Shown here in pieces: positions 41,180 to 55,853 of a stretch of 64,000 nt of DNA. The translations under genes were made by a program, and so were the position numbers. This DNA comes from an uncultured Gammaproteobacteria bacterium (GTDB lineage Bacteria; Pseudomonadota; Gammaproteobacteria; Eutrophobiales; Eutrophobiaceae): positions 1,921,501 to 1,985,500 of the forward strand of contig CALSRS010000001.1 of NCBI GenBank assembly GCA_943788815.1, given 5' to 3'. The notes under the pieces were generated by a model, which had not been told where the DNA came from, did not search any database, and was given only the letters and a program-made list of their open reading frames with translations. Every line of letters begins with the position of its first letter. The first letter of the stretch is position 1.

Positions 41180-41212
41180 ATTGTTACTCTGACCCTAAAT
41201 ATTGATAAATAA

Positions 41213-41575
41213 ATGTCTAAATTGAAAAAAGAAATTAAATTTGAAACCACGTTTGGGGAATATATTGCATATGAAATAATTGGGGAAGGTGGTGCTGGAA
41301 GAGTGTATGGTGGTAAAAATCAAAATAACGATGATATAGCTATTAAGTTATTGCATTCAGGGCCCGAGTCGATAGAAAGAAGAAAAAGATTTAAGAACGA
41401 AATTAATTTTCTGCAGCAAAACAAACATAAAAATATTGTTACGGTTATTGACCATGGAATTGTAAGTAATGGCTCCAAAGTCGAACCATTCTGTGTTATG
41501 CCTAGATTTACTCAAAATTTAAGAAAATCATTGGAAACACAGCTTGATGATAAAGGGGAAAGTGGGGTCAGATAA
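41213..41575 (+). pseudogene. Truncated serine/threonine protein kinase (N-lobe only)
   Basis: A 120-residue remnant of a protein kinase. The glycine loop IGEGGAGRVYGG, the ATP lysine in IAIKLLHSG and an alpha-C region (ERRKRFKNEINFLQQ...NIVTVIDHG) are present. It stops just after the hinge, before the HRD and DFG motifs, so it cannot be an active kinase. The last residues GVR and the TAA stop come from the hairpin repeat at 41561. Base composition is more AT-rich than lhr before it. The 3' part is not found elsewhere in the window. Confidence 0.75.
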
Positions 41576-41615
41576 TACTTTTTTGTATAATTGAAAAGTC
41601 TTATCTGACCCCACT
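41561..41615. repeat. GGGGTCAGA-type hairpin repeat, perfect 15-bp arms
   Basis: AGTGGGGTCAGATAA (41561-41575) and TTATCTGACCCCACT (41601-41615) are exact inverse copies around a 25-base T-rich loop. It sits exactly at the junction between the cut kinase gene and the cut FTR1 copy. A single TACTCTGACCCTAAATATT half-site also lies at 41184, between lhr and the kinase gene. Confidence 0.85.
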
Positions 41616-43444: not shown

Positions 43445-43741
43445 ATGGATGAGAATTATAAATTTAATGGAATTGAATTCGTCTGGAACAAGGCGAAGTC
43501 AAAAAGTAATTATCAGAAACATGGAATTACTTTTGAACAAGCAGCACAAGTTTTCTTTGACCCCTTTTTTCGCCTGATGGATGCAGGTGATAAAGGAGAA
43601 ATGCGAGATGCTGTTATTGGAATAGATGAAAACTGGAACATACTCTATGTAGTCCATGCCTTATTCATGGGAGATAAAATTAGATTAATCTCAGCAAGAA
43701 AAGCAACTCGTTTTGAACGACAATATTATGAACATAGATAA
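43445..43741 (+). CDS. brnT: BrnT family toxin
   Basis: A 98-residue protein with FVWNKAKSKSNYQKHGITFEQA at the start, DVI-like central RDAVIGIDENWNILYVVHA and the C-terminal IRLISARKATRFERQYYE, all typical of BrnT, a RelE-like RNase toxin of type II toxin-antitoxin systems. The basic/histidine residues expected for RNase activity (KHG, RKATRFERQ) are present. It precedes and overlaps its antitoxin gene by 14 bases. Confidence 0.92.
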   Translation: MDENYKFNGIEFVWNKAKSKSNYQKHGITFEQAAQVFFDPFFRLMDAGDKGEMRDAVIGIDENWNILYVVHALFMGDKIRLISARKATRFERQYYEHR

Positions 43742-44012
43742 ATTAAAAAAACGCCTGGAAAACAACAGACCAATGGTATCAGTAACAATGAGGATGCCAG
43801 AAGATGTAGTCGAAGACCTGAAAGAAATCGCTCCAATACTTGGGTTCTCCGGATATCAGCCATTGATCCGGGCTTATATTGGACAAGGACTCAGAAGAGA
43901 TTTAGAAAAGCTGGATGCTGACACCATGACCCTATTAATCACCAGTTTAAAACGACGTGGTGTAAGCCAAAAAGTAATTAAGGAAGCTCTTGCAGAAGCA
44001 CGTCAAAGTTAA
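43728..44012 (+). CDS. brnA: BrnA-type antitoxin
   Basis: A 94-residue antitoxin from ATG 43728, which overlaps the end of brnT. MVSVTMRMPEDVVEDLKEIA is the ribbon-helix-helix DNA-binding part and YQPLIRAYIGQGLRRDLE continues the fold. In many BrnA proteins this domain is C-terminal and preceded by a toxin-binding segment; here it is nearer the N-terminus with a helical C-terminal tail (VSQKVIKEALAEARQS) that may bind the toxin. A CopG-type antitoxin name would be equally fair. Confidence 0.85.
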   Translation: MNIDKLKKRLENNRPMVSVTMRMPEDVVEDLKEIAPILGFSGYQPLIRAYIGQGLRRDLEKLDADTMTLLITSLKRRGVSQKVIKEALAEARQS

Positions 44013-44796: not shown

Positions 44797-45008
44797 AACA
44801 ATTAATACTCAATACTCACAGGCTGATTTAATTGAGAATAGTTTAAAAAACCACAAGGATCAGTGTCGATTGATTTAAGAAAGTCAGTCTACTAGACTGA
44901 ATCAAGGTTATATACAGTTACCGGGCGTGTAATAATGATATTTAAAGTTAGAGTAAAATCTCGACAAATAATTATTACACCGACCCTTAATTAAAAAAGG
45001 AAACGTTG

Positions 45009-45470: not shown

Positions 45471-45784
45471 TCTCCTCGGGAGTCATAATCCCATTAAATA
45501 AAAAGGGTCAGTGAATGTAAAATCGGGGTCAGGTTGAACCTCCCCCAGTTTAACGGATACTTTTAATAAGCGACAATGTGGCAAACAGAAGGAGTTTCCA
45601 GATAAATAGGGGACAGACTACGGTTTCGAAACATGATCGGGTTCGGACCTAAGTAAGCAGTTGATTTCAAATAATAAGAAATTAAAATAGTATTGACTTT
45701 TTAGCTTAGAACCCTGTTTTTGGTATTAAAAGTAAGTTTCTAAGCTGAATTAAATTACCACCAACAGAAGACGGGAGATAAGGT
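45471..45784. repeat. Spacer with GGGTCAG / GGGGACAGAC motifs
   Basis: No gene in these 314 bases. AAGGGTCAGTGAATG (45501), CGGGGTCAGGTTG (45524) and ATAGGGGACAGACTACGG (45606) are members of the repeat family that separates genes in this half of the window. Confidence 0.65.
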
Positions 45785-46264
45785 ATGACGCTTGCAAAAT
45801 CGCTGCTGATTATGATTCTGGTTTCCGCCCCATCGATAAGCTGGAGTCAACAGGACCCTATAGAGAAACTCGCAGGATCGTGGAAACAGGATTTCTCGCA
45901 AACGAGGCCGGCGCCATTTCCAGTACCGCGGAGCCGGTTCCACCGGTGGGAGTTGGCGGGAAAAGACAAGATGATGCACATATCTGAAATAGTCGAAGCA
46001 GACGGAACGAAGAGGGTTACGGAGGAACAGACTGACGACTACAGCGGCAAGCCGTATCCAGATCGAGAAAACGGGCAAACAACCGTTTTTCGGCGTATTG
46101 ATGAGAATACCATTCAGCAGATTCGAACCGGCAAGGATGGCCAGATTGTCCGGTTTCTTGAACGTGTTATCTCAACGGATGGCAAAACGCTGACGGTACG
46201 CCAGGTCGGTGTCAACGCCGAGGGAAAAGCGAATCAGGAAATACAGGTCTATCAAAAGCAGTAG
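45785..46264 (+). CDS. Unknown exported protein, lipocalin-like
   Basis: A 159-residue protein with a clear signal peptide (LLIMILVSAPSISWSQQ). The mature part starts IEKLAGSWKQDFSQTRPAPFP, with GSWK at the usual place of lipocalin-like or DUF-type beta-barrels, and continues with alternating strands (TTVFRRIDENTIQQIRT, GKTLTVRQVGVN). Good GGGAGATAAGGT before the ATG. No partner genes. I would only call it a small periplasmic beta-barrel protein. Confidence 0.6.
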   Translation: MTLAKSLLIMILVSAPSISWSQQDPIEKLAGSWKQDFSQTRPAPFPVPRSRFHRWELAGKDKMMHISEIVEADGTKRVTEEQTDDYSGKPYPDRENGQTTVFRRIDENTIQQIRTGKDGQIVRFLERVISTDGKTLTVRQVGVNAEGKANQEIQVYQKQ

Positions 46265-46287
46265 TACGGAAATCAAATAAATATATA

Positions 46288-46376
46288 TAGGGGACAGACC
46301 ACGCTTTTCTACAATATTTGAGGTCAGAGTAAAAACTCTGAGGAAGAGCACAAGTAATTTTTATTCTGACCCTGAA
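46288..46376. repeat. Compound GGGGACAGACC / GGTCAGAGTAAAA repeat
   Basis: ATAGGGGACAGACCACGC (46288) is followed by GAGGTCAGAGTAAAAACTCTG (46320) and by its inverse partner TTATTCTGACCCTGA (46361-46375), giving a hairpin with GGTCAGAGTAAAA / TTTTTATTCTGACC arms. It lies between two convergent genes. Confidence 0.75.
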
Positions 46377-46389
46377 CTTACTATTTCTT

Positions 46390-46671
46390 TTAGTCCGTGC
46401 GGCTAGTGACTTCCAGCAGGTGATAACCGAACTGGGTTTTAACTGGCCCTTGCACTACATTGACTTCGTCGTTAAAGACTACCTCGTCAAATTCCTTGAC
46501 CATTTGTTTTGGACCAAATTCACCCAGGTCTCCTCCTGATTTCCCTGAAGGACAACTTGAATATTGCCTGGCAAGCTCGGCAAAGTCTGCACCGTCGGCT
46601 ATTTGCTGTTTCAGGTCCGCACATTTTTCTTCAGTATCCACCAGGATATGCCTTGCACTTGCTCTCGCCAT
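46390..46671 (-). CDS. ppiC: Parvulin-type peptidyl-prolyl isomerase
   Basis: A 93-residue single-domain parvulin. ASARHILVDTEEKCADLKQQI, FAELARQYSSCPSGKSGGDLG, FGPKQMVKEFDEVVF and the C-terminal FGYHLLEVTSR give the full PpiC fold with the conserved active-site histidines, Cys and Phe. No signal peptide, so cytosolic like E. coli PpiC. The frame is open further upstream, but GGAG precedes the ATG pair at 46674/46671. Confidence 0.93.
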   Translation of the reverse strand: MARASARHILVDTEEKCADLKQQIADGADFAELARQYSSCPSGKSGGDLGEFGPKQMVKEFDEVVFNDEVNVVQGPVKTQFGYHLLEVTSRTD

Positions 46672-46795
46672 CATTTTCTCCAGTTTGGTATAAATGGTCA
46701 TTGTACCTTTAATGGTATGCGGTGTCATACCGTGGTTTACCTGTCTTTTTCCATTCCTCCGAAGGCCACCAGCAATTCCTCGACCAGGTGAAGAG

Positions 46796-46850
46796 ATATT
46801 TGGGGTCAGAGTGAAAACTCGAAAGTTACTTTTACTCTGACCCTAATTAA
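46796..46850. repeat. 54-bp hairpin repeat, left copy flanking the pirin gene
   Basis: ATATTTGGGGTCAGAGTGAA ... TTACTTTTACTCTGACCCTA. The arms GGGTCAGAGT and ACTCTGACCC are inverse copies. It is nearly identical, in the same orientation, to the copy at 47781-47835. Confidence 0.85.
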
Positions 46851-46910
46851 AGTACGTCATCAGTATGAGAAAAATCTGTCCGTAACAATGCTGCCCTATA
46901 TAATGTGAGT

Positions 46911-47782
46911 ATGAATCAACATCCAAAAATAGTTAATGCTACAAAGCTTGGCAATATCGGTCTGCGCCTAATCGGCACTACAGATATTGATGGACAAGGT
47001 ACTGCACATGAAATTGCGCAGGTGGACCCCATTGTTTTGTTTGATTTTGCAAAATTCAAAGCCAGTAAGGAATCAGAATTTCGTCCCCATCCCCACCTGG
47101 GACTAACAGCCATGAGTTTTATGCCCCAGAATGGAACCTGGAAAGCATGGGACAGTTTAAAGGGTGACACGGATGAGGTTTTAAAACCAGGCGGGCTATA
47201 TTATGTCCATGCGGGGACTTCTGCATTTCATCATGAATTCGCTGCACCTGAATCAGCAGATTCGGGAGAAGAGATCGAGTTTATTCAACTTGTTTGGAAC
47301 GCCACGGATGAAAAATATGTTAAAACACTGATTCTGCGCAAATACGTGTCATGGCGGGTGAATTCTGTGGCGTTTCGTCCGTCCAACCTTTCACTCACAG
47401 AAAAATAATCTATAGCTATATTCATTTACATCCAGGTAAAAATTTAGAAGTTGATATTCCGGAAAACATGAACGGGATTGTCTTTCCAATTGAAGGTGAT
47501 ATTACGGTGAGTGGCACAACACTGAATCAACAACAGATGCTGATATTCGATGCTGGCACGGCAGATCTAACATTGAAAAACGCTGATGCAAATCATTCAG
47601 CACGATTAATCATTGCCGCGGGTGAGCCAGTTAATAAATCATTTCATAAACTTATAGGGTTAGGAGGGTTTATTATTGGTGATGATGAACAATCAATTCG
47701 GGATGAGATGCAAGCCTTGAGCGCCCAGACCGAGCAGTTAAAAAAAGAAATTCCCCAATACTTCCCAACGAAGTACCTTTGA
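46911..47782 (+). pseudogene. Pirin family protein gene with a frameshift
   Basis: Two overlapping frames together give a pirin of about 290 residues. The first (to 47408) has VDPIVLFDFAKF, FRPHPHLGLTAMSFM and YYVHAGTSAFHHEF, with the His ligands of the pirin N-terminal cupin. The second continues with NTDSAQIRVMAGEFCGV, IYSYIHLHPGKNLEVDIP and INKSFHK-type C-terminal sequence. The shift lies between about 47310 and 47326 in an A-rich stretch (GATGAAAAATATGTTAAAAC), consistent with one lost base. As given, the first frame ends 30 residues after the shift, so a full protein is not made unless this is a sequencing error. Pirins are Fe-binding proteins, some with quercetinase activity. Confidence 0.8.
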
Positions 47783-47835
47783 TATTTAGGGTCAGAGTAA
47801 AAATTCGAAAGTAATGTTTACTCTGGTCCTAATTA
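47781..47835. repeat. 54-bp hairpin repeat, right copy flanking the pirin gene
   Basis: ATATTTAGGGTCAGAGTAAA ... TTTACTCTGGTCCTAATTA. It begins within or just after the pirin stop codon and ends at the RidA-like stop. About 47 of 54 positions match the copy at 46796. Confidence 0.85.
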
Positions 47836-48282
47836 CTAAGGCAGGATAGCGATGGCTTCGATCTCAACCTTATAGGCGGGATCCGCCAATTGTACAACCT
47901 CGAACGATGAGCTTGCCGGTCTGTGATTTCCAAAATGTTTGGCGCGTATGGCCCTCACTTCCGGGCTCTGATACTCGTCCATGTTGGTAACAAAGGTCGT
48001 AATCTTGGCGAGGTTGCTGATGTCGGCTCCTTGTGACTTGAGCGCCGTGGTTACGTTGACTAATGTCTGGTCCAACTGCTCCTCCATGCTTGGTCCCACG
48101 ATCTGTCCATCGGCATTGCGGCCCACCTGCCCTGAAATGAAAAGGATATTTCCTGCCTTGACCACGTGTGAGTATCGCGTTGGGGTGGGTATCCCTTCAG
48201 GATTTGTAAACTCGAGCATCTGAGCATAGGCTGGATTAACTGCCAACAAAACTAATATGGTTATTGCCAGGCTTCTTTTCAT
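47836..48282 (-). CDS. Exported RidA-family (YjgF/Rid) protein
   Basis: A 148-residue Rid protein with a signal peptide (ITILVLLAVNPAYAQ). The Rid core follows: RYSHVVKAGNILFISGQVGRN, MEEQLDQTLVNVTTALKSQGAD, KITTFVTNMDEY and ASSSFEVVQLADPAYKVEIEAIA. RidA has an arginine before the final VEIE segment for enamine/imine hydrolysis; here the corresponding place is PASSSFEVVQLA and the arginine is not obvious, so it may belong to a Rid subgroup without that activity. Export is unusual, since RidA acts on cytosolic enamines. It is on the same strand as the broken amidohydrolase, downstream of it. Confidence 0.85.
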   Translation of the reverse strand: MKRSLAITILVLLAVNPAYAQMLEFTNPEGIPTPTRYSHVVKAGNILFISGQVGRNADGQIVGPSMEEQLDQTLVNVTTALKSQGADISNLAKITTFVTNMDEYQSPEVRAIRAKHFGNHRPASSSFEVVQLADPAYKVEIEAIAILP

Positions 48283-48305: not shown

Positions 48306-48426
48306 AAATATTTGGGGTCAGAGTAAAAACTCTAAACTAAAAGGGGCCGGAGTGATTTATTTTTAACCACTCCGACCTTTTATATTTTTATCTACCAGGG
48401 TCAGAGTTTTTACTCTGACCCCGTAT
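48306..48426. repeat. Compound GGGGTCAGAG repeat overlapping the amidohydrolase 3' end
   Basis: Three arms are visible: TTTGGGGTCAGAGTAAAAAC (48311), an imperfect inverted pair GGGGCCGGAGTG / CACTCCGACC (48343-48378), and a perfect hairpin GGGTCAGAG / CTCTGACCC (48398-48406 and 48413-48421). The last one contains the stop codon and last codons of the amidohydrolase copy. Confidence 0.8.
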
Positions 48427-50464
48427 ATTCCCATTCAGGATCTTTGTAGATTACTTCATCTCCAACTACCGTCATTAGCATTTTATTGTCCTCAATTTCT
48501 GCAACGGGAACGGAAAAGAAATCACGATCGAGCACAACGAAGTCGGCCAATTTTCCTCGTTCCAGTGTGCCTGCCATATTTTCTGCAAAGAGCCATTCCG
48601 ATGCACGGCTGGTATATAATCTCAATGCGGTTGTTCGGTTAACCGCTTCTTCGGGCATGACTATCTCACCTTTGGCATGTTCATCGCTGGGGTCTTTTAC
48701 CTCCCGGGTAATAAACATGGATATATCCCGGAAGTAAATACTAGGATCCAGCTCATGTCCGCCTTCGCCAACGACCTTCACGCCTGCCTCAAGCAAGGTT
48801 TTCGTTGGTGCAAGAAATTCCAAACCTTCAGGTCCATATCGCTTGACCTGAACAAGCGATTCAGCAACATCACTGGGTCGTATGGGGACATAAAAGTTAT
48901 AGTCAATCATGGTTTGCATAACATCCGGGACTTTGCCGACAGCACCGCCGTGTGCAAAGGATAATCTTAAATTGCGAATATCATCCATGCTCATTCTTGC
49001 ATCCTGGCGCGCTTTGTCTATCCAAGCAGCATGGAGACGAAACTGTTCACTACCAAAAGAATGCATACTGAAGATACGCCAGCCGGCTTTAATCGCTGGA
49101 ATCAAAACCTGATTGATTCGATAGTTCTCTATATCCATACATTGTTCTCTATCCTTAAGACCGGGCGAACCTGGCAGATCCTCACCAAAACAGGCAACAC
49201 GCCGTGAATCGCCACTTCCTCCATCTGTAATTCCCATGGGCCAGAACCACGGATTCGCTTCTGGTGGCCCCCAGTGACTACCCAGTTGAACAGGTAACTG
49301 TGGATGATTGGGATAAAGAAGTGGGGTACGGAGCATTTCGTAGCCATAGCCAAACCGCACTGGCAGCCGCTTGTCCTCACGCAATATCTCATAGAAGGCC
49401 GTTAGTGTACGGCCATTCTCAATACTGGATGAAATCATGGTCAAGCCGGCTTCTGCATAATGCTCCATCACTTTTTTCAACCATCCCCTGTACATATCCC
49501 TGGGAACTCGGGGTGGGAACACTGTGGTTACCCATGCGCCAGAATCATTCAGAACACCTCCGATCAAACCTCGGTCACCTCCGTTTTCTGTTAAGGAGGT
49601 CATTGCATTTGCCGCAGCAATAAAACCTGGCCACACGTCAATCGTTTTTTCCAAAGCCAACTTGTTCATGACGGCAACATTATGACTACAATGTTGACCA
49701 TGATGTGGATATTTTTCGGACCAGGCACATCCCTGTTCGAGATGTACGTGCAGATCATCCTCTCGGTCACGGGCGATATTTTTACTGAACAAGGTAAAGA
49801 AGGGGTTAATATTGTGATCGTCTGAGGAACTTGGTGCCGCTGCCTGCGGTACGCTCAACGGTTCAACGAGACTTTTTCCATCAGGTTCAACACGGATCCG
49901 GATTACCACACCCCTTTGCCTCACTGCGCTAGTACCACGACCGTTTTGCATTACAGCAGGATTATTTGGAACGACGCGGGTCAAATCATCCAGGGTAAAA
50001 GCATTTACCTTATATATTCCATCCGTCATTGCAGACTGGTCGGGATATACATCGTGCTCTTCTAATGTAATAAGATTTATATGTACCCATTCTCCCGATT
50101 CCGGAGGATATGTTTGAAGCTTCTGACTCAATTTTTCGAGTACATCGGATGGTTCTTCTCCTATTTCCAATGTCACTGTCATATGCAGACCGGGGGCTAA
50201 TTGATAAGAATCTCGTATAACCTGAACACTGGGCGTCTCATTAAGCGTCGTTTCTGGATGGACATGAGTTTCTATCAGACCAGGAATAACGGTCTTACCT
50301 TTAACATCCATTATTCGTGTGGAAGGACCAGCGAGGCTTCTTATATAAGCATCACTACCAAGATCCAGGATCGTTCCATCCCTTATCGCCATCGCCTGCA
50401 CGATGGACCCAGGATCGGCTGACATTATGTCGGTGTTATCCATGGTGACGATATTGCCATTGAT
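48410..50464 (-). pseudogene. Third amidohydrolase, main part, cut off from its 5' end by an IS element
   Basis: About 680 codons of a YtcJ-like amidohydrolase closely related to the copy at 1-1971: the same PGSI.QAMAIRDG.ILDLG, ETHVHPETTLNE (HVH), HVHLEQGCAW, FSMHSFGSEQF and FAHGGAVGK. The signal peptide and first 46 residues lie on the far side of the insertion element, at 51969-52109. Read back from the main part, the frame meets a stop inside the element at 50474-50476. An internal ATG at 50443 could start a 677-residue product without export signal. The C-terminus ends YTGSE plus stop, encoded by the repeat at 48398; in the paralogue the same region reads VWTPQIRNN, so the original end has been replaced. 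Confidence 0.9.
50456..50464. repeat. Target-site duplication, left copy (GCCATTGAT)
   Basis: GCCATTGAT here and at 51969-51977 flank the insertion element exactly. On the coding strand it is ATCAATGGC, codons I-N-G of the amidohydrolase. Confidence 0.85.
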
Positions 50465-50537
50465 TGTAAGTCGTCAAAAGATTTGGGACAAAATAGCGTA
50501 AATATTAAGAGAGACTTTTAACTATTATAGTCTTGTT

Positions 50538-51524
50538 TCACTGATTTATATATATTCTTAAATTTTCCTTTCTCCTCTGTTGTAATGTTTCGTATTTGAT
50601 AATGGTTCTTCTATCCATAATTTCATGATAGCGGCCAAAATACATATCTGCCGGCGTAATATTATCAAGTGACTCATGGTAACGTTCATGATTGTAGTAT
50701 TGTACAAATTGCCGGATAGCATGTTCGAGTTCCCACGGATAATAATAGTGCTCCAGCTTCACGACGTTCTTCATGGAGCGGTGATATCGCTCTATCTTGC
50801 CTTGTGTCATGGGATGGTACGGTGCGCCACGGGTGTGTTGCATCTGATATTTACTCAGATAATCCTTCAATTCCGAGGAGATATAACAAGGCCCGTTATC
50901 ACTCAGTAAGCGAGGTCGGTGTTTGACCGTTATCTCGTTGACTCCCGTGGTCTCAATCGCCGCATCCAGCGTCTGCTTCACGTCATCAGCTGCCATGCTG
51001 GTTGTTAACTTCCAGGCAATGATGTAGCGGGAGTAATCATCTAGAACAGTGGACAGGTAATACCACCCCCAACCAACAATACGAAAGTAGGTGAAGTCAG
51101 TCTGCCAAAGCTCGTTGACTCGTCGTGTTGGATTCTGAAACGAATCACCCGCTTGCATCAGGATATAAGCAGGACTGGTAATGAGATCGTACTGCTTTAA
51201 CAGTCGATAAACGCTGGATTCCGAGATGAAGTAGTTGTGCTCATCGGTGATGGTCCAGGCAAGTTCCCGAGGCGATTTGTCAGGGTACTGTAACGCGAGC
51301 TCCAGACACTGCTCCTTCACCATCTCAGGTATCTTATTCCAGAACTGTCTCGGGGACCGATTATCTGGCTCCAGGCCCTCTGGACCATCATCCAGGTATT
51401 GCCGATACCAACGATAGAAACTGCTGCGGCTCACACCTAACTCGGCCAGAGTGCGTTTCACGGGTAATTCCGACGCCTCTACCAAGCGGATCACTTCCAG
51501 CTTTTCAGCTGCTGAAAGACTCAT
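50538..51524 (-). CDS. IS3-family transposase OrfB (DDE integrase domain)
   Basis: A 328-residue transposase. An N-terminal helix-turn-helix (LAELGVSRSSFYRWYRQYL) is followed by a linker with a HTH_21-like segment (SPRELAWTITDEHNYFISESSVYRLLKQYDL) and an rve catalytic core with the acidic residues in LWQTDFTYF, LLSDNGPCY and GKIERYHRSMKN. The C-terminus has QYYNHERYHESLDNITPADMYFGR, typical of the family. It overlaps orfA as ATGA. All catalytic motifs are intact, so the element may be active. Confidence 0.93.
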   Translation of the reverse strand: MSLSAAEKLEVIRLVEASELPVKRTLAELGVSRSSFYRWYRQYLDDGPEGLEPDNRSPRQFWNKIPEMVKEQCLELALQYPDKSPRELAWTITDEHNYFISESSVYRLLKQYDLITSPAYILMQAGDSFQNPTRRVNELWQTDFTYFRIVGWGWYYLSTVLDDYSRYIIAWKLTTSMAADDVKQTLDAAIETTGVNEITVKHRPRLLSDNGPCYISSELKDYLSKYQMQHTRGAPYHPMTQGKIERYHRSMKNVVKLEHYYYPWELEHAIRQFVQYYNHERYHESLDNITPADMYFGRYHEIMDRRTIIKYETLQQRRKENLRIYINQ

Positions 51525-51880
51525 TCGTCTTCCCAGGTCGACTCCAAGCCAAGCACACTTTTTTTAAGTACCTCGTTCTTCAGCATGATGTCAGCCACCA
51601 GGCGTTTGAGCTGGTCATTTTCTTTCTTCAGGTCGGTCACTTCAGTGGAGTTTGCTTCCCGTTTTATATCGCCCGCCAGACGCTGTTTACCCGCTTCCAG
51701 GAACTCCTTACTCCAGCGGTAATACACGTTTTGATTCAATCCTTCACGGCGACACAGCTCGGCAATGCTTTCTTCTCCACGCATCCCTTCCAGTACAATT
51801 CGGATCTTTTCTTCAGAGGAATACTTCTTACGGGTACGACGACGTATATCTTTAACTAATTTCTCGCTATTATTGCTCAT
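51521..51880 (-). CDS. IS3-family OrfA
   Basis: A 119-residue helix-turn-helix protein (KYSSEEKIRIVLEGMRGEES, then ELCRREGLNQNVYYRWSKEF) with a C-terminal coiled-coil/leucine zipper (TDLKKENDQLKRLVADIMLKN). Two ways to express orfB are visible: reinitiation at the ATGA overlap, and a -1 frameshift at A7G (51560-51566 on the other strand), after which the frame is open into orfB without a stop. Confidence 0.92.
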   Translation of the reverse strand: MSNNSEKLVKDIRRRTRKKYSSEEKIRIVLEGMRGEESIAELCRREGLNQNVYYRWSKEFLEAGKQRLAGDIKREANSTEVTDLKKENDQLKRLVADIMLKNEVLKKSVLGLESTWEDE

Positions 51881-51968
51881 AATGAGACTCCTATTTATAA
51901 GTTTAACTTATCAGAAGTCTCTCTTAGAAATCAGCTCAATTCTGTCTCATATGCTTTGACGGGATACA

Positions 51969-52167: not shown

Positions 52168-52222
52168 GAGATATTTGGGGTCACAGTAAAAACGCTGATA
52201 ATTGGAGTCAGAGCCCTTTTAG
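52168..52222. repeat. Degenerate GGGGTCACAGTAAAA repeat
   Basis: ATATTTGGGGTCACAGTAAA (52171) is followed by ATTGGAGTCAGAGCCC (52202) and TTGGAGTCAGGAC (52232). These lie upstream of the amidohydrolase fragment and downstream of the TonB receptor gene, in the same pattern of separators. The remaining sequence up to 52376 shows no gene. Confidence 0.65.
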
Positions 52223-54506: not shown

Positions 54507-54625
54507 GGAATTTAACCGGCACATCTTGTTATGGCTGCAAATATTTACAGGCGACAATTATGCAATGACTGTGTGGAGTAAATGTGAGAGTAATGTGAAA
54601 ATTGAGTGAAGAGATTGATACGGAT

Positions 54626-54720
54626 ATTTGGGGTCACAGTAAAAACTATTTTCAAGATTTACGAATATATAGGGGACAGACCACGTTTTTAAATTAAATT
54701 AACGGTTTGTCCTATATAAT
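54626..54720. repeat. Compound repeat between the TonB receptor and the hydrolase
   Basis: ATATTTGGGGTCACAGTAAA (54625) is followed by TATATAGGGGACAGACCACG (54669-54688), which pairs with GGTTTGTCCTATATAA (54704-54719) to form an imperfect hairpin. It lies between divergent genes, so it could carry promoter function in addition. Confidence 0.7.
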
Positions 54721-55749: not shown

Positions 55750-55812
55750 TGATATTTGGGGACGGAGTAAAAACTTGCTAACGCCAATAATAATTTTTAC
55801 TCTGACAACAAT
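55750..55812. repeat. GGGGACGGAGTAAAA hairpin repeat
   Basis: TTGGGGACGGAGTAAAAAC (55757) and TAATTTTTACTCTGACAAC (55791-55810) are imperfect inverse arms. It starts just after the hydrolase stop and ends before the cyclase gene. Confidence 0.7.
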
Positions 55813-55853
55813 TACTTTATAAATAAAAAAAAATATTAAATGGGAGACATGCG

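Follow-up and report, generated by a model that had tools for sequence, protein, structure and literature searches.

Probable TIRYT-type hairpin repeats and the edges of gene blocks that differ between species in a genus of uncultured Gammaproteobacteria

In a genus of uncultured Gammaproteobacteria, short hairpin-forming repeats coincide with the edges of gene blocks that were gained, lost or re-ordered between species, as shown by statistical association. The window, a stretch of 64,000 nucleotides (C1:1921501-1985500), belongs to a genome of 3.23 Mb in three contigs. The hairpin family appears to belong to the known TIRYT-type repeats, and the interesting part is its link with breakpoints. 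Quite probably, the hairpins are orphaned, non-autonomous remnants derived from a RAYT/TIRYT element that would act as preferred joints of gene-block turnover. As part of this explanation, two hairpins flanking a pirin gene are ordinary copies of the family rather than the termini of an element devoted to pirin. The question bears on whether REP-like repeats join in gene gain and loss or merely collect in spacers. The genus provides a compact test case: copies are few, their outer end can be recognised, and block edges are in measurable excess there; a further merit is that no whole transposase relative was found in the source genome.

Edges of shared blocks and their coincidence with hairpins

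The core GGTCAGAGT occurs nine times in the window, against 0.34 expected, and the full and half copies of the family are the hairpins and arms of Table 1. DNA of the window and of the sequence following it was compared with relatives, among them G001, G002 (of the same genus) and G004; these are draft assemblies, in which false joins can arise at repeats. Edges of shared blocks fall at 41203 (end), 46359 (start), 46791 (end), 46799 and 48303 (start and end of one block), 48407 (start), 52193 (end), 54624 and 55739 (start and end of one block), 55751 (start), 64176 (end), 64267 (start) and 79650 (end). All of these edges lie within 13 bp of a hairpin or inside one.

Table 1. Hairpins and neighbouring genes in the window (window coordinates)
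Feature	Position	Strand	Remark
Half hairpin 3' of the helicase stop	41181-41202	-	End of the shared helicase block at 41203
Family hairpin, degenerate	44934-44996	+	R1 model/alignment
Third hairpin, with a longer loop, separating the 45785-46264 gene from the PPIase gene	46313-46380	+	PPIase block edge inside hairpin
PPIC-type peptidyl-prolyl isomerase (PPIase) gene	46390-46728	-
Remnant of rdgC 3' end, adjoining the 46795 hairpin	46737-46791	-	rdgC whole at the equivalent place in G002
55-bp hairpin left of pirin	46795-46849	+	Left edge of pirin-RidA block common to G002
Pirin, N-terminal half	46905-47408	+	Pfam Pirin, PF02678, barely above cut-off
Pirin, C-terminal half, other frame	47351-47782	+	Pfam Pirin_C, PF05726
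55-bp hairpin between pirin and RidA	47781-47835	+	Away from any block edge
RidA/L-PSP family gene	47836-48282	-
Composite hairpin region, RidA to amidohydrolase	48308-48421	+	Left arm 48308-48329, arm pair 48398-48421
Amidohydrolase gene, next block	48410-50443	-
Single arm	52171-52192	+	End of G002-shared block at 52193
Single arm	54624-54645	+	Start of G001-shared block at 54624
Hairpin	55750-55815	+	Joins G001/G004-shared block (to 55739) to G002-shared block (from 55751)

Additional DNA is present in G002 between the PPIase and pirin genes (rdgC and an alpha/beta hydrolase gene, 2.3 kb), between the RidA and amidohydrolase genes (a PSD-domain gene and an ankyrin gene, 4.6 kb) and at 64.2 kb (3.0 kb). 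The composite hairpin region carries both edges of the 4.6-kb difference. At the joint between PPIase and pirin, one end of the difference falls on the hairpin and the other inside rdgC, only the last codons of which are retained in the window before the hairpin.

The association was measured on 44 alignment rows (at least 72% identity), of which seven were left out (six shorter than 155 bp or in helicase repeats, and a 362-bp row whose left edge was also that of a retained row); a duplicate pair was merged. Six edges at contig ends or IS were dropped and 55 were kept, 41 of them either in spacers or no more than 30 bp from a gene end. Twelve of these 41 edges are no more than 5 bp from a hairpin, a proximity that 4.9% of such positions have (binomial 4e-7, edges at one hairpin coming in pairs and not being independent). 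When the count is restricted to 41-66 kb, where hairpins occupy much of the short spacers, it becomes 11 of 27 edges against 10.6% of spacer positions (p 5e-5). Hairpins were defined by a 22-bp scan that gives 0-3 on shuffled sequence, and 10 of the 21 stand at an edge, whereas random relocation among spacers yields a mean of 1.8 and a maximum of 8, with 0 of 5000 relocations as high. Seen from the G002 side, five of six hairpins found by a covariance model of the family (R1) are at an edge, a count from the same alignments and thus not independent; the sixth lies between pirin and RidA. One more palindrome in G002, the seventh (C67:11317-11375), absent from the R1 list, was left out of this count though an edge lies inside it. 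The remaining 29 of the 41 gene-end edges are away from any hairpin.

These figures also bear on a passive coincidence, in which REP-like repeats gather in fast-changing spacers and alignments end there without any part played by the repeats. This explanation is possible though doubtful. Hairpins do lie mainly in two regions, the compared region varies in content, and repeats can turn over faster than genes, as in the spacer between pirin and RidA. However, the null is already drawn from spacer positions in the same region, and the other sequence held by the relative at three joints (2.3, 4.6 and 3.0 kb) goes beyond another repeat. Furthermore, many joints fall at the outer ends of a repeat, with 10 of 27 edges within 5 bp of a repeat boundary in 41-66 kb against 4.5% expected from positions. 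Under the favoured explanation, with the hairpins as RAYT/TIRYT-derived joints, deletions and insertions would most likely take one of their ends from these hairpin-forming repeats, either through cutting by the transposase as long as the genome still had it or through template switching, to which the repeats may be prone as single strands. A broader proposal makes tyrosine-transposase repeats general joints of cassette-like exchange. Throughout the genus, one- or two-gene blocks with TIRYT hairpins at their ends would be swapped in and out, also between two chromosome regions, with neither an integron nor a cognate transposase resident in the genome; in that general form the proposal is rather unlikely.

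Three side observations were made. The gene at 45785-46264 (window 45746-46266) is 94% identical to a stretch in G004 and 92% to one in G001, far above the 78% of the neighbouring PPIase, and for that reason was likely transferred recently between species. A BrnT-like gene (PF04365) and its partner, at window 43445-44012, are found in G002 on the opposite side of the helicase. Near the same joints in relatives (G001:C1 near 80730 and 81950; G004:C2 near 6290 and 7460) are palindromes resembling TGGATTC-GGC-TTCGC-AGAATGACGG, looking like another REP family.

The pirin gene and its two flanking hairpins

A sequence-only reading of this DNA had presented the pirin gene as a unit bracketed by two near-identical hairpins in direct orientation, by which it could be excised or duplicated. 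The direct repeats themselves were confirmed, being identical at 47 of 55 positions, in the same orientation and 986 bp apart from start to start. Both copies fold as single-stranded DNA (-13.0 kcal/mol and z -6.4 against shuffles for the left one, -10.4 kcal/mol and z -5.4 for the right one), but the stem of the right copy is imperfect because its right arm reads ACTCTGGTCC. The pair was said to enclose exactly one gene; pirin is indeed between them, but split into two overlapping open reading frames and not whole. In G002, pirin is a single frame of 302 amino acids including both parts, the N-terminal part scoring under the Pfam cut-off there, and the window copy shows a 37-bp gap when aligned with it. 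The split frame and this gap make the window pirin very probably a pseudogene. It was also called the cleanest case of a bracketed gene, but it is not the only one: the PPIase gene (between the 46313 and 46795 hairpins) and the RidA gene (between the 47781 hairpin and the composite region) also sit between family hairpins.

Excision or duplication of the pirin unit would call for RecA-dependent recombination between the two direct repeats, which appears quite improbable. The orientation, likeness and spacing of the repeats are in its favour, as is the restriction of pirin, at E ≤ 1e-10, to the source genome and G002 among 40 genomes. Nevertheless, RecA recombination needs roughly 20-30 bp of identity, whereas the longest uninterrupted identity between the two repeats is 10 bp. 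Moreover, pirin and RidA form one block in common with G002, in which the 47781 hairpin is internal, so that pirin alone is not the exchanged unit. The predicted allele, with one repeat and lacking pirin, was not found at the matching place in G001, G003 or G004. Because these three genomes have no match to pirin (E ≤ 1e-10) or RidA (E ≤ 1e-15) and the PPIase gene adjoins rdgC in G001 and G004 (in G001 some 120 kb from the helicase match), no clean empty site can be read. Pirin with unrelated flanks, the observation named beforehand as contrary to the bracketed unit, was not seen either: G002, the sole other genome of the 40 with pirin, has R1-model hairpins on both sides of it. A plasmid search with the protein of the N-terminal half gave one match only, 31% identical.

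The earlier interpretation thus holds in spirit, hairpins lying at the boundaries of blocks of differing gene content between same-genus genomes, but not as excision of pirin alone. Since about half of the region's hairpins sit where gene content differs from close relatives, the hairpins look like joints of gene exchange and not like the termini of a mobile unit belonging to pirin alone.

Spread, structure and transposase link of the repeat family

A 20-bp arm of the family (up to three mismatches) has 26 matches in the source genome, against one for the reversed control pattern, and 23 of the 26 lie in C1:413-444 kb and C1:1962-2025 kb. At E ≤ 0.05, and with 150 of the 1476 candidates scored, the R1 model, built from 14 copies, finds at least 20 distinct places, those 14 included; 18 of 20 are in C1:413-444 or 1906-2029 kb. 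At E ≤ 0.01, with up to 123 candidates scored per genome, R1 is found in 11 of 40 genomes, all among the 25 of the same family, and in 0 of the 15 genomes outside it. The first cluster (C1:400-460 kb), compared with 20 loci of relatives, gave just four matches of at least 150 bp and at least 72% identity, not enough to repeat the edge test there. It includes two adjacent paralogues of 742 amino acids (C1:433803-438933), whose G002 relative, 87.5% and 77% identical to them, is separated by 4 bp from a hairpin and is located on a contig otherwise matching the other hairpin-rich region (cluster 2). Each hairpin-rich region also has one copy of a two-gene IS with an rve domain, the two copies being 99.9% identical (window 50464-51968 and C1:445319-446822).

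Twenty of the 21 hairpins lie in or across intergenic spacers and one lies inside a gene. Stable hairpins near stop codons at several places could be transcription terminators that work in both directions and are conserved for their RNA structure, an explanation of low probability. Indeed, 14 of the 21 are between tandem genes, four between divergent ones (including the 46795 hairpin) and three between convergent ones, and several copies of the family are single arms. Stem pairs show no covariation: 3 of 22 changed on both sides against a shuffle mean of 3.8, and there is no sign of selection for RNA structure because two-sided changes are no commoner than in shuffles. No Rfam match and no tRNA were found in the window, and a tRNA-linked island was set aside for lack of tRNA genes there.

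At least 119 stretches of genome_contigs carry the 18-bp arm TTTGGGGTCAGAGTAAAA as an exact match; most of the 80 stretches among the matches listed are titled as gammaproteobacterial MAGs. There is no exact copy in viral_contigs, on which ground viral carriage was rejected. An HMM of five transposases was used to scan 119 arm-bearing stretches, in place of a motif filter for RAYTs whose five frames looked false. A RAYT-like frame was identified in 17 of the at least 119 stretches, and 16 of the 17 have it no more than 1 kb from an arm. In seven loci (L130, L135, L168, L172, L187, L225 and L234), a near-full frame stands between inverted arms, and in L153 and L194 a fragment does, so that inverted repeats bracketing a Y1 (HUH) tyrosine transposase gene, as in TIRYTs, are present. 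All five transposases tested exceed the Pfam Y1_Tnp cut-off; they score 61-75 bits with NF047646 (REP-associated tyrosine transposase), under its curated cut-off of 80 bits, and are therefore called RAYT-like only.

The arms of the seven elements were chosen by the exact 18-mer and their likeness within it is by selection. Past the 18-mer, AC continues in 7/7 elements and ACTC in 4/7, as in many window hairpins, and three of the seven begin with ATATTT like most window copies. Hairpins are present in 51 of the at least 119 arm-bearing loci. The consensus core GGGGTCAG fits the TIRYT motif GGGGWSAS, with variation in single copies (the 47781 copy reads AGGGTCAG). No GTAG or GT[AG]G tag was seen by eye at either foot of the consensus hairpin in the alignment, where GTAG occurs within the stem in two rows. 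The source of the hairpins would be a RAYT/TIRYT element (HUH-type, with an IS200-like tyrosine transposase), and more precisely its terminal inverted repeats. Given the arms and their observed transposase link, the hairpin looks like the 5' and 3' ends of such an element, which would have been joined with little between them. The source genome has one partial transposase relative (C1:1197711-1198199) with no arms beside it, and G002 has none at E ≤ 1e-5. It is because of this lone partial relative without such arms that past mobilisation of the hairpins in the source genome is something we infer. A complete TIRYT/TIRtron would include a cognate transposase in the same genome, and the family as found here falls short of that full element.

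Other repeats were noticed in the window. A second repeat, AGGGGACAGACCACG, also fitting GGGGWSAS, is at 45605, 46286 and 54668, the last two copies within 30 bp of a hairpin, and has six matches (up to four mismatches) in C1:1895-2045 kb. A hairpin at 41565-41611, GGGTCAGATA...TATCTGACCC, is perhaps from a third repeat family.

Comparison with known repeat systems

TIRYT repeats were described with the motif GGGGWSAS, that is GGGG[AT][CG]A[CG] (Di Nocera et al. 2013, PMC3733652), and some genomes are known to have TIRYT-type repeats while lacking the transposase gene (Quentin et al. 2018, PMC6006769). As far as the consulted portions of these papers describe them, TIRYTs/TIRtrons resemble the present family in inverted repeats around a RAYT-like tyrosine transposase gene, the GGGGWSAS core, moderate copy number, dimers and clusters, whereas the partial transposase relative only, the copies in two regions and the coincidence with block edges set it apart. 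Among the matches listed, a text search did not find the family's sequence in print as a known repeat; the one paper with both this string and the word transposase concerns human cells. GGGGTCAG is absent from the main text of PMC3733652, whose Figure 9, showing TIR sequences, may depict the repeat. The GTAG-tagged REPs and REPINs of RAYTs are likewise short intergenic palindromes tied to a Y1 transposase, with dimers and orphan populations, whereas the present family has about 20 copies and a consensus hairpin whose foot, by eye, lacks GTAG.

REP sequences were proposed at exchange points in E. coli O157 (PMC3158064), where, in the sections consulted, palindromic repeats meet some junctions of exchanged O-antigen gene blocks and a genome-wide comparison of REPs and exchange points is called for. 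The repeat family and host differ here, and a null based on spacers was applied; among the matches listed in the literature search, no paper applied such a breakpoint test. REPs are also described, in the consulted text of PMC1525189, as insertion targets for IS elements. In Pseudomonas, according to the corresponding text of PMC3390384, REPs mark older, stable regions and are absent from acquired DNA, a picture opposite to the one drawn for the hairpins of this genus.

Integron attC arrays share with the window the presence of hairpins between short gene blocks, and the source genome has an integron integrase (TIGR02249, 446 bits, C1:241882-242820). Reading the hairpins as attC-like sites and the region as a cassette array is nonetheless extremely improbable and was rejected, as no link between the hairpins and the integrase locus was seen. 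The hairpins lie 1.7 Mb from it and not in its array, no arm of the family occurs in the C1:222-300 kb surrounding it, genes of the region are on both strands, and elsewhere these arms stand on either side of a RAYT. The repeats beside the integrase (C1:242.6-248 kb) are different and have AAC/GTT-type ends, as in the attC motif. By eye, C1:241882-248000 (L050/L051) has the integrase beside an apparent attC cassette array of its own.
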